Source: a virus
Virus record (IMG/VR): IMGVR_UViG_3300004804_000029
Span: 1 to 24,513 of that record
DNA length: 24,513 nt
Reading direction: 5' to 3' (one strand)
Each line of letters starts with the position of its first letter. Within the stretch, counting starts at the first letter, position 1. Below, piece by piece: positions 7,116 to 23,427 of the stretch. Below the pieces are notes generated by a model. That model ran no database searches. It was not told the origin of the DNA and worked only from the letters and a program-made list of their open reading frames with translations. Made by a program: the position numbers and the translations under genes.

Positions 7116-7634
7116 ATGGCAGAAATTAAAAAGGGTGTAAGTGATAATGCTTACAATCAATTAGCAGAAGCAGATACAAATGGAGATGGCTACGTAAGTA
7201 GCCAAGAGTTAGCCATGTACATGGAGTTTAAACGTAAAGAGCTTGAAGACCAAGACGCTCAACGTGACGCTATGCGTAAGATGACATGGTTCGCTTTATG
7301 GGGTATGTTACTCTATCCAGTAACTATCGTTATTGCTTCTTACTTAGATGTAGATGATGCAGCTAAGATCATCGGTAATATTGCTCCTACATACTTTGTT
7401 GCAATCTCAGCTTTGGTAGCAGCTTTCTTTGGCGCTAATGCGTATTCAGCATCAAAAAAGTCTGAGGCGGCTCCAATGCCGCCGCCTAGACCATCATTTC
7501 CAACACAAGCACCAATGGTTGTAAATGATCCAGCTCCTGTAGTTGATACAGCATCTCCACCTCCAGCATTTGGTGAAGATCCAGCTCCAGAAGCACCAGC
7601 AGGTAGAGTAACGCCAACACGTAAGATTACGTAA
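7116..7634 (+). CDS. EF-hand membrane protein of unknown function (holin candidate)
   Basis: 172 aa. Residues 20-31 (DTNGDGYVSSQE) form a textbook EF-hand calcium loop with acidic or polar ligands at positions 1, 3, 5 and 12. A charged helix follows (about 32-55), then two membrane segments (about 57-77 and 90-110) and a proline/alanine-rich tail (about 116-165) ending in basic residues. A good GGAAAT site precedes the ATG. It sits between the tail-tube-fold gene and gp16, in the late structural block. Two transmembrane helices plus a charged tail would suit a holin or inner-membrane partner; the EF-hand suggests a calcium response. No known function can be assigned. Confidence 0.75.
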   Translation: MAEIKKGVSDNAYNQLAEADTNGDGYVSSQELAMYMEFKRKELEDQDAQRDAMRKMTWFALWGMLLYPVTIVIASYLDVDDAAKIIGNIAPTYFVAISALVAAFFGANAYSASKKSEAAPMPPPRPSFPTQAPMVVNDPAPVVDTASPPPAFGEDPAPEAPAGRVTPTRKIT

Positions 7635-8082: not shown

Positions 8083-8796
8083 ATGGCATTACCTATTAAT
8101 AATACACCAACCTATACGCTGGTGTTACCATCAACCGGTAAAGAAGTTAAGTATAGACCGTTTTTAATCAAAGAAGAGAAGACATTACTCTTGGCTCATC
8201 AGTCAGAAGATCCTAAAGTAATGGTCGAGTCTCTCAAAGGCGTGATTAAGTCATGCCTTAAAGATGACACAGATGTAGAAACGTTTGCTACATTTGACAT
8301 CGAGTATGTGTTTACACAGATCAGAGCAAAGTCTGTAGGTGAGATCGCAGAGTTAATGATTAGATGTGATACATGTGAAGATGAAAAGGCTGTTGCTAAG
8401 GTAGAAGTAGACTTGACTAAGATCGAAGTCAAAAAAGATACAGAGCATACAAACAAGATTCAACTTTTTGATGATGTTGGCATATTGATGAAGTATCCAA
8501 CAATCGATGTACTTAAGAAGTTAGAGAACCTTGATAACACAAATGTTGATGAAGTATTCAGTGTCATCATTGAATGTGTTGATTCGATATATGATACTAA
8601 TCAAGTATACCATGCTAAAGAACAAAGTAGAGATGAGTTGTTACAGTTCCTCAATAACTTATCATCTGAGCAGTTCCAAAGGGTTCAGAAGTTCTTTGAG
8701 ACGATGCCTAAGTTGACACAAGCTGTAGACTATAAGTGTCCAGTATGTAATAAAGAGCATCATAAAGTATTAGAGGGTTTAAATAGTTTTTTTTAG
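8083..8796 (+). CDS. 26: Baseplate hub assembly protein gp26 / tail assembly chaperone (short form)
   Basis: 237 aa (T4 gp26 is 208 aa). It matches the T4 gp26 baseplate family: YTLVLPSTGKEVKYRPFLIK, EEKTLLLAHQSEDP, then VEYVFTQIRAKSVGE-like text at 73-88. Two CxxC pairs, CDTC at 95-98 and CPVC at 219-222, could bind zinc. An AAGGAG site precedes the ATG. The last codons are AGT TTT TTT TAG within an eight-T run, and the -1 frame is open for 60 further codons, up to the tape measure start. gp26 is needed for hub assembly; together with the extension it has the layout of lambda gpG/gpGT tail chaperones. Confidence 0.8.
   Translation: MALPINNTPTYTLVLPSTGKEVKYRPFLIKEEKTLLLAHQSEDPKVMVESLKGVIKSCLKDDTDVETFATFDIEYVFTQIRAKSVGEIAELMIRCDTCEDEKAVAKVEVDLTKIEVKKDTEHTNKIQLFDDVGILMKYPTIDVLKKLENLDNTNVDEVFSVIIECVDSIYDTNQVYHAKEQSRDELLQFLNNLSSEQFQRVQKFFETMPKLTQAVDYKCPVCNKEHHKVLEGLNSFF
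8773..8793 (+). promoter_or_regulatory. Probable programmed -1 frameshift site with upstream SD-like stimulator
   Basis: The heptamer T TTT TTT (8787-8793) is a canonical X XXY YYZ slippery site in the gp26 frame, followed directly by the TAG stop. GAGGG at 8773-8777, 9 nt upstream, resembles the internal Shine-Dalgarno that stimulates the E. coli dnaX -1 frameshift. I see no strong downstream hairpin. Confidence 0.65.
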
Positions 8797-8975
8797 TTAA
8801 TCTCTCTCATGAGTCTTTGCATAACTTCTATAAGATGAACTTTGCACTGATGCAATATCATCATTATAGTTTAGAAGACTTAGAGAACATGATACCATTT
8901 GAGAGAGATATCTACGTTGCTATGTTAATTAAGTACTTAGAAGAAGAGAAACAGAGACAGGAAAATAACAAATAA
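8793..8975 (+). CDS. C-terminal extension of gp26 read by -1 frameshift
   Basis: Open in the -1 frame relative to gp26, giving 60 residues after the slip: LVNLSHESLHNFYK, then a helical stretch with MNFALMQYHHYSLEDLENM and IPFERDIYVAMLIKYLEEE, ending in a charged tail. The full fusion would be 297 aa. An internal ATG at 8835 has no Shine-Dalgarno, and the codons before it (HESLHNFYK) look protein-like, which argues for frameshifting over separate initiation. The stop overlaps the tape-measure ATG (TAATG). Position, short length and acidic/aromatic helix fit the T half of a G/GT tail assembly chaperone that binds the tape measure. It may play the part of T4 gp51, but no similarity was established. 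Confidence 0.7.
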   Translation, partial: LVNLSHESLHNFYKMNFALMQYHHYSLEDLENMIPFERDIYVAMLIKYLEEEKQRQENNK

Positions 8976-10543
8976 TGGCTAAGAAAGATCCATCGCTATC
9001 ATTAGAGTATATCTTACAGAAGCAGCAGTCTGAAAAGCTTTCAGGCTTAAGCTCTACTGTAAAGTCGCAGTTAGGTAATATACCTCCTGCTGGTAGCGGT
9101 ATGCCTCCTGAGAATAAGATCTTATCAGAACTTAAAAAGATCAACACGTCTTTAAATGTTGGTCTTAATAAGAACATCGTTAAGATGACTAAGACTATCG
9201 AGAATAGCACTAGTACTCTTGCTGGTTTTATGAAAGGATCTAGGAAACCAGTACCTCCACAAACTAAGAATGACTTAAGTCAACAAGATATAGAAGATAA
9301 AGACTATAAAGCCCAAGAGTTACATCTATTAGAAGAGATTCGTGATGGCTTAAGGATTAAAGAAAAGAAAAAGGATGATTCTGAACTTGCTACATGGCTA
9401 AAAATATTAGGTGGAGCTATTGCAGCGGCAGTTGCAGCCCTTAAATCGTGGACTAAATTAGTTAGAAATCTAATAGATGCTTTCCTTCCTGAAAAATTAA
9501 AAGCTAGGATATCTGAGTCATTTAATAAATGGTTTAAAGGTCTATTAAAAGATTTTAAATTAGCTAAGACCCAAATCTCAGACTTCTTTAAACCAGTATC
9601 AGACATATTTAAAAGTGTTGCAGAAAAGCTTAAGAAAGCTTTCACATTTAAAGAAGAAAGCTATATAGGAAAAATCATCAAAGCATTTAGGAATGGATTT
9701 AAATACATTGGAGACACATTTAACAGTGCTATTAAACTAATTAAAGCTTTCTCTAAACTAAATTTCGTATCATCTATAACAGAATTCTTTGGACAAATAT
9801 CTAAATTTGGAAAATACTTTGCTAAGATCGGTATGAGATTTGCTAGGATATTTGAACCACTTGCTATCATCATAGGCGTATTCACTACTATATCAAAGAC
9901 TATTGAAGGTTATAAGACAAAAGGAATAGTTGGTGGGATAGGCGGATTCTTAAAAGGCGTAGTAGGAAGTATCGTATTAGGGTTCTTCGATTTAGTCAAA
10001 GACATCTCTGCATGGGTAATAGGATTATTTGGGTTTGATAAAGCTAAAGCATTTTTAAATTCATTCTCGTTTGAGAAGCTATATGATGATATGATCGACA
10101 AGATCGTAGACTCTGTCAATAACCTATTCACTAGCATAGGTGATATATTCCGTAATGCACTTAAATGGTTATCTAACATCGAGATACCTGCAGTAAACTT
10201 CTCTGTATTTGGTAAGAAGTTTGAAGCTGGTCCATGGAAACCATTAGCTGGATTTGCTCCAGATGAAAAACCAACAGAAGCTCCTAAGGCAGTAACTGCA
10301 GAAGCTATTGAAGTTAAGCCAGAACAAGTAGTTACTCCTCCACCAGTTGCAGCTGAAGCAATCTATGATAGGTCTGCTGAGAATGAAGAAGGAGCAATGC
10401 AATCATTTGCTGCGCCTACTAATAACATAGTCAACGCACCAACGACTATCACTAAGTCTACACAAAACAACTTAATGAAGGTTAACATTAGAAATACTGA
10501 CACATCTATAAAAGATTATTATAGATCCAGATTTGCCTCATAA
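8975..10543 (+). CDS. Tape-measure/baseplate hub protein, gp29-like
   Basis: 522 aa (T4 gp29 is 590 aa). Long helical regions alternate with hydrophobic, glycine/alanine-rich segments, for example about 144-157 (LGGAIAAAVAALKS) and about 290-345 (PLAIIIGVFTTISK, then GIVGGIGGFLKGVVG). Phe/Lys repeats dominate 185-290, and a Pro/Glu-rich linker precedes the C-terminus, which ends TDTSIKDYYRSRFAS. This composition, with membrane-like segments in a soluble tail protein, is typical of tape measures, which set tail length and exit into the host envelope during DNA injection. It starts on the stop of the gp26 extension, exactly where tape measures follow their chaperones. Confidence 0.7.
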   Translation: MAKKDPSLSLEYILQKQQSEKLSGLSSTVKSQLGNIPPAGSGMPPENKILSELKKINTSLNVGLNKNIVKMTKTIENSTSTLAGFMKGSRKPVPPQTKNDLSQQDIEDKDYKAQELHLLEEIRDGLRIKEKKKDDSELATWLKILGGAIAAAVAALKSWTKLVRNLIDAFLPEKLKARISESFNKWFKGLLKDFKLAKTQISDFFKPVSDIFKSVAEKLKKAFTFKEESYIGKIIKAFRNGFKYIGDTFNSAIKLIKAFSKLNFVSSITEFFGQISKFGKYFAKIGMRFARIFEPLAIIIGVFTTISKTIEGYKTKGIVGGIGGFLKGVVGSIVLGFFDLVKDISAWVIGLFGFDKAKAFLNSFSFEKLYDDMIDKIVDSVNNLFTSIGDIFRNALKWLSNIEIPAVNFSVFGKKFEAGPWKPLAGFAPDEKPTEAPKAVTAEAIEVKPEQVVTPPPVAAEAIYDRSAENEEGAMQSFAAPTNNIVNAPTTITKSTQNNLMKVNIRNTDTSIKDYYRSRFAS

Positions 10544-13261: not shown

Positions 13262-13954
13262 TTAATCTATCGCACCATCCTCAACTTTTACCTTAATCTT
13301 AGCTTTCTTGACTGCAGGCTTTGGTTGTTCCACGATCTCATTATCCTTCTCAGCTTCCTTCTTAGCTTGCAGCTCTACAGCCTCAAACCTCTTCTTGAGT
13401 CTAGGCTTGATCTCTTCTGCGTTGAACCACAACTCAAGTCCATTTAAGACCTTCTCTAATTCAGTCTTAGTTAAGAAACCTTGGTATGCATCTAACAATA
13501 GCTTCTCACACTGTTTAACCGTAAAGTCTGTGTGCGCCTTGACTGTTGGTGTGTTACCAGCAGATCCGAATGAAGCAGTATGGATCATGATGTAGGCTGT
13601 ATCATATACATGGACAGCATGGCAATACATGGCTATTAGAGAGGCAGCAGAGTGACATGCACCCATTAGGAATGCAGTCACTTCTGCCCGAGATGAAAGG
13701 ATGCCTGATATGATTGCTCCAGCAGAATCAAGGTTACCACCTGGAGAATTAATAAACAGGTGAATCTTGTCGTTCTCGGATGCATTGATAAGCAGAGAGA
13801 CTAACTCTCTATACTTACTAGGATCCTCGATCTCTTGATCAAGAAATACTTCATGAGTTCTATATACAGACTCGATCGTATTGATATGTACATTATTAAG
13901 TAGTCCACTAAATATATTAGTTGGATTTTCATTTGCAAGTTGTGTCACGATCAA
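13262..13954 (-). CDS. ClpP-like serine protease
   Basis: 230 aa. ClpP landmarks are in order: IHLFINSPGGNLDSAGAI (69-73 is the NSPGG oxyanion loop), FLMGACHSAASLIAMY with the nucleophile at S105, and AYIMIHTASFG with catalytic H125. A C-terminal Lys/Glu/Val-rich tail (about 195-230) is an addition beyond the fold. The third triad residue cannot be placed with confidence. ClpP needs an ATPase partner; none is visible here, so it might work with host ClpA/ClpX, act alone like ClpP-type phage head proteases, or alter host proteolysis. It overlaps the SleB-like gene by 4 nt and therefore sits in an operon with a lysis-type gene, not with head genes. Confidence 0.8.
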   Translation of the reverse strand: MIVTQLANENPTNIFSGLLNNVHINTIESVYRTHEVFLDQEIEDPSKYRELVSLLINASENDKIHLFINSPGGNLDSAGAIISGILSSRAEVTAFLMGACHSAASLIAMYCHAVHVYDTAYIMIHTASFGSAGNTPTVKAHTDFTVKQCEKLLLDAYQGFLTKTELEKVLNGLELWFNAEEIKPRLKKRFEAVELQAKKEAEKDNEIVEQPKPAVKKAKIKVKVEDGAID

Positions 13955-23350: not shown

Positions 23351-23427
23351 TGGTGGGCCCACATGGACTCGAACCATGAACCAAAGGATTATGAGTCCTC
23401 TGCTCTAACCAACTGAGCTATAGGCCC
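23351..23427 (-). tRNA. tRNA with CAU anticodon, probably tRNA-Ile2 (alternatively tRNA-Met)
   Basis: A full 77-nt cloverleaf on the minus strand: acceptor GGGCCTA/TGGGCCC, D arm GCTC/GAGC, anticodon arm GAGGA-CTCATAA-TCCTT (anticodon CAU), T arm CATGG-TTCGAGT-CCATG, discriminator A and an encoded CCA end. The acceptor has C4-G69 and C5-G68, features used by TilS to recognise tRNA-Ile2, and looks like tRNA-Ile bodies; this favours the AUA-reading Ile2 form, as carried by T4. An elongator tRNA-Met cannot be excluded. Confidence 0.95.

Follow-up and report, generated by a model that had tools for sequence, protein, structure and literature searches.

A T-run slip site at the end of gene 26 almost certainly yields two forms of a tail assembly chaperone in a T4-like phage

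The gp26 junction and its neighborhood

The window (the whole stretch of DNA analyzed, 24,513 nucleotides) is a 24.5 kb virus record with T4-type genes, including those for gp26, gp32, RNase H, a gp5-type hub lysozyme, a DNA end protector, the tail tube protein and the terminase small subunit. The gp26 homologue was identified by profile searches (Pfam PF12322 T4_baseplate, E 2.3e-64; PHROG phrog_150, E 3.2e-70). Its final codons are AGT (8785), TTT (8788), TTT (8791) and TAG (8794), which lie in a run of eight Ts, as a preliminary description of this DNA had read them. That description had also placed a T_TTT_TTT heptamer in the right phase for -1 slippage, with a GAGGG sequence 9 nt before it; the heptamer agrees with the gp26 frame as read from its start, and the spacing of GAGGG to the Ts is as described (Table 1).

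After a -1 slip, reading restarts at 8793 (TTA GTT AAT CTC ...) and continues through 60 open codons to a TAA at 8973-8975, which overlaps the ATG at 8975 of the following ORF as TAATG. The length of the open -1 frame and its stop on the tape measure ATG had been noted beforehand and were found to be exact. In searches against the PHROG profiles the extension matched phrog_634, "baseplate hub assembly catalyst" (gp51), with an E-value of 9.2e-25, and a second match was to the gp26 profile, PHROG 150, at its C-terminal end. The ORF that follows matched PHROG tape measure profiles (E 4.1e-8 and 2.2e-6), and a tblastn search of named phages with this ORF gave no match at 1e-5. Based on these profile matches and the TAATG overlap, gp26 and the extension lie directly upstream of a tape-measure-like ORF, as is the case for G/GT-type chaperones, and the lambda-type order of chaperone, frameshifted extension and tape measure that had been suggested for the locus was borne out. 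The tape-measure-like ORF is only 522 aa long.

Table 1. Features of the gp26 junction in the window.
Feature	Position	Strand	Details
gp26 homologue (TAC-N, putative short form, lambda gpG-like role)	8083..8796	+	237 aa; stop TAG 8794-8796
GAGGG, SD-like element, probable frameshift stimulator	8773..8777	+	9 nt 5' of heptamer; putative stimulator role
Slippery heptamer T_TTT_TTT, gp26 frame	8787..8793	+	inside 8-T run 8787-8794
-1 extension, gp51 C-terminal-like domain (putative TAC-C, lambda T-like role)	8793..8975	+	60 codons + TAA
Tape-measure-like ORF	8975..10543	+	522 aa; ATG overlaps extension stop (TAATG)

Three further features of the window were recorded. The gene at 7116-7634 (plus strand), which is flanked by those for the tail tube and the terminase small subunit, encodes a 172 aa protein that has a proline-rich tail and a weak EF-hand match below the Pfam cut-off. 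On the minus strand, 13262-13954 encodes a ClpP-type protease domain (PF00574, E 1.3e-16), here in a T4-like phage, and 23351-23427 is a tRNA-Met gene with the anticodon CAT.

Conservation of the heptamer and of the -1 frame

The T run is uninformative by itself, as TTTTTTT is not rare in this AT-rich window (5 matches versus 8.8 expected). Since T runs are common in AT-rich DNA, the conservation of the site among relatives was tested. Two scans of IMG/VR, with a few contigs occurring in both, produced 160 homologous loci from uncultivated viruses, which together with the window gave a full set of 161 and a non-redundant set of 90 at <85% gp26 identity. Identities of gp26 in the set reach down to about 40%, and the counts given below take no account of shared ancestry.

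An in-frame T_TTT_TT[T/C] was present at the gp26 stop, or no more than 8 codons away from it, in 161/161 homologous loci. The last base of the heptamer is T in 41 and C in 49 of the 90 non-redundant relatives, and the gp26 stop lies 0, 1 or 8 codons past it. The codon preceding the heptamer ends in T in every case, whether the residue is Ser, Asp, Asn or Ala. Of the 94 remaining Phe-Phe pairs in these genes, only 5 have T_TTT_TT[T/C] coding. The same layout of heptamer and extension was seen in named cyanophages (S-SM1, ACG-2014d and S-MbCM6), pelagiphages (HTVC008M and Mosig) and Vibrio phages (phi-Grn1 and D525), as well as in Sinorhizobium phage phiM7, Caulobacter phage Cr30, Stenotrophomonas phage YB07 and Rhizobium phage LG08.

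The extension is open, for 59-69 codons, in all relatives with sufficient sequence, and comparison of the junction across the relatives found the T run, the phase and the extension kept in the 161 loci. Pairwise substitutions in the extension land on the third positions of the -1 frame. The pN/pS of the extension was 0.18 in the -1 frame, as opposed to 0.96 when read in the frame of gp26 and 2.12 in the remaining frame. The substitution patterns indicate that purifying selection acts on the extension in the -1 frame only. In the window's clade, conservation of the extension starts straight after the slip (L-I/V-N-L-S/C-H-E/D-S-L) and continues across its internal Met codons. The codons ahead of the internal ATG had previously been judged protein-like, and conservation that begins upstream of the internal Met codons is in keeping with that judgement.

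Some phages carry the extension and lack the heptamer. In the Ackermannviridae Salmonella phage KE31, Dickeya phage phiDP23.1, Erwinia phage Bue1 and Vibrio phage VAP7 the -1 extension is present and T_TTT_TT is absent, and Vibrio phage K382 has likewise kept the -1 extension without a T_TTT_TT heptamer. In several of these heptamer-less phages an ATG overlaps the gp26 stop, in the form TAATG in phiDP23.1 and VAP7. Stop-start coupling, or a weaker or different slip site, may operate in such phages.

Stimulatory signals and alternative explanations

A GAGG, GGAG or AGGA core is located 7-17 nt 5' of the heptamer in 73/90 relatives, as opposed to a background of 3-5% at control positions. Glu is encoded at the SD-like position by GAG in 56 relatives and by GAA in 16, compared to 9 GAG and 32 GAA at other Glu-Gly pairs, and a conserved Glu-Gly peptide accounts for part of the GAGGG signal. 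GAGGG is a probable SD-type stimulator like that of dnaX. In dnaX of E. coli, the slippery heptamer A_AAA_AAG is preceded at about 10 nt by an SD-like sequence and followed on its 3' side by a strong stem-loop. The gp26 junction resembles dnaX in its tandem slippery heptamer and in the SD-like sequence preceding it, but differs from it in the heptamer itself and in that no conserved 3' structure was found here. Immediately 3' of the heptamer, local RNA folding was somewhat stronger than at control positions (mean z about -1.3, versus -0.04 to -0.54). A folded alignment of 28 close relatives contained no compensatory pairs indicative of a conserved 3' stem-loop, and single-sequence folds 3' of the site vary from relative to relative. 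Two relatives (L134 and L142) have a perfect short hairpin, GGTCCATATGGACC, just 3' of the slip site, and the close relatives of the window are without it.

The fusion could in principle arise from transcriptional slippage on the T run, rather than from slippage by ribosomes, and the window's eight Ts are of a kind that could permit a polymerase to slip. We regard this as very unlikely, because in 49/90 relatives the run is six Ts followed by a C, with the phase T_TTT_TTC kept, a pattern that fits tandem slippage by ribosomes, and because the SD-like element is conserved too.

A further alternative is that the extension is a separate small gene, translated from an internal start or by termination-reinitiation at the gp26 stop. 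Many cyanophage records treat it in this way (under the name "gp51 baseplate hub assembly catalyst"), and a -1-frame ATG overlaps the gp26 stop (TAATG or TGATG) in 4/90 relatives, as well as in phiM7, Cr30, YB07 and some Ackermannviridae. An independent gene does not fit, since conservation of the protein precedes the internal ATGs and the stop-overlapping ATG is absent in the other 86/90 relatives and in the window. The preliminary description had reported a single internal ATG without a ribosome site. The window in fact has four in-frame ATGs in the -1 frame (8835, 8850, 8889 and 8922), as well as a TTG at 8817, but the remark about the ribosome site stood for ATG 8835, ahead of which no SD-like sequence was seen in the window. 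That ATG is retained in about one third of relatives. In addition, a separate gene would leave the invariant heptamer and the SD-like core within gp26 unexplained. None of the 90 non-redundant relatives bears the extension as a free-standing gene with a ribosome site of its own, an arrangement that the preliminary description had itself raised. Weighed against the heptamers and SD-like elements of the relatives, both this account and transcriptional slippage were judged unlikely or rejected, and we consider a separate gene highly improbable.

An assembly or sequencing error, in which the loss of a T from an error-prone homopolymer would have split one continuous ORF (nine Ts would join the frames), was rejected as scarcely conceivable, because the identical break recurs at 161 loci, drawn from many samples, and in the complete genomes of cultured phages, in T6C and T8 runs alike.

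The heptamer in phase, the conserved -1 coding and the candidate stimulatory element provide strong support for a programmed -1 site, and the -1 frameshift giving a gp26-extension fusion, as was originally proposed for this DNA, is strongly supported by the comparative evidence. In public records of cyanophages, pelagiphages and Vibrio phages (e.g., GU071094.1, KC465899.1 and KT919972.1) the extension stands as a separate "gp51", as a hypothetical gene or without annotation. What many records of cyanophages and marine phages list as "gp51" is most likely no gene of its own but the frameshifted half of gp26, and such annotations should be joined.

Predicted products and relation to other chaperone systems

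Our analyses indicate that the phage almost certainly makes two forms of one tail-assembly helper by a -1 slip on the T run. The best explanation overall, which we hold to be very probably correct, is that gp26 is a short TAC to which a -1 slip on T_TTT_TTT adds a gp51-type C-terminus. Under the proposed mechanism, GAGGG would pair with 16S rRNA and hold the ribosome near the heptamer. Ribosomes, of which we infer that a minority slip, would then step back one base on T_TTT_TTT by tandem Phe-tRNA re-pairing, just before the stop. The slipped ribosomes would read on in the -1 frame to produce gp26 with a 60-residue gp51-type C-terminal domain, and those that do not slip would terminate to produce the short form. 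By analogy with lambda G/GT, the presumed chaperone function would be divided such that the abundant short form coats the tape measure protein, the product of the following gene, and the scarce long form recruits tail tube or hub parts. Neither form would need to remain in the virion.

The arrangement resembles that of lambda G/GT, in which a short chaperone and its -1 extension also come immediately before the tape measure gene and one gene has two products. The slippery sequence of lambda G/GT is G_GGA_AAG, whereas T_TTT_TTT is found here, in a contractile T4-like phage, and the comparison made here is one of layout. A 2016 review (PMC5009743), which states that the G-T frameshift is widely conserved "except T4", describes lambda G/GT as two products of one gene that act on the tape measure protein.

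In T4, gene 26 and gene 51 are oppositely oriented. Profile comparison aligned residues 11-201 of T4-type gp51 with gp26 (E 4.1e-10), and the C-termini of T4-type gp51 aligned with the -1 extension by hhalign (E 1.9e-9). Because the N-terminus of gp51 is similar to gp26 and its C-terminus to the extension, T4 gp51 looks like a gp26 paralogue fused to the extension, with T4 devoting one gene to the short form and another to the long form. The window's gp26 is accordingly homologous both to T4 gp26 and to the gp51 N-terminus, but T4 has two divergently oriented genes without a frameshift and a single gene here would give both products. The preliminary description was correct that gp26 and gp51 are separate genes in T4, yet the two look like the short gene and the fused long gene of one family. 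Nine frameshift-type records had a single gp26 adjoined by one extension and lacked a separate full-length gp51, and three T4-type records had gp51 in a single open frame, although records in either group may be incomplete. Structural models of gp26 (pLDDT 86.7) and of T4-type gp51, a natural fusion (pLDDT 88.7), had the same order of secondary structures, with three additional C-terminal helices in gp51. These comparisons support T4 gp26 and gp51 as the short and long forms of one tape measure chaperone, a reading that helps to explain why gp51 is essential but absent from the virion.

We tentatively offer one possible evolutionary scenario. The lineage of the window may retain an ancestral state in which hub assembly relies on a fixed ratio of gp26 to gp26-extension that slippage sets. 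The T4 arrangement would then have arisen by duplication, with fusion of one copy and loss of the frameshift, and the Ackermannviridae-type junction, which has no heptamer (e.g., ATT TTC ATT TAATG), would be a third route, using stop-start coupling.

Vladimirov, Gautam and Davidson reportedly described in 2022 a frameshift that several T4-like groups conserve, with genes 26 and 51 in use in the T4 group. Two later papers credit their study (Virology 2022, 566:9-15) with the assignment of chaperone genes in T4-like phages, PMC10885494 citing it for members in which a short gene exists beside a fused long one, and PMC12846349 for -1 signals of the poly-T type in the TAC-N genes of such phages. 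Going by these citations, a frameshift in T4-like phages was already described and is not the new finding that the preliminary description had expected to change the view of hub assembly. As the study is represented there, it concerns the same genes 26 and 51, the same kind of poly-T -1 signal, and the separate short and fused genes of T4-type phages; the SD-like element and the site statistics come from the present analysis. What is new here, relative to the study as cited, is a strongly supported case in an unlabelled lineage, together with the quantified conservation of the site and the SD-like element.

The Vandenendeviridae and Andersonviridae chaperone (PMC12846349) is similar to the present one in layout, with a poly-T -1 site ending TAC-N and a conserved -1 frame before the tape measure gene, but belongs to other phage families and has a GTTTTT signal. 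Profiles of gp26 and gp51 found nothing credible in sequence searches of the PDB. In a Foldseek search of the PDB with gp26, one of the top matches was the tail assembly chaperone of HK97 (2ob9), and this match was weak (E 0.9, probability 0.60).
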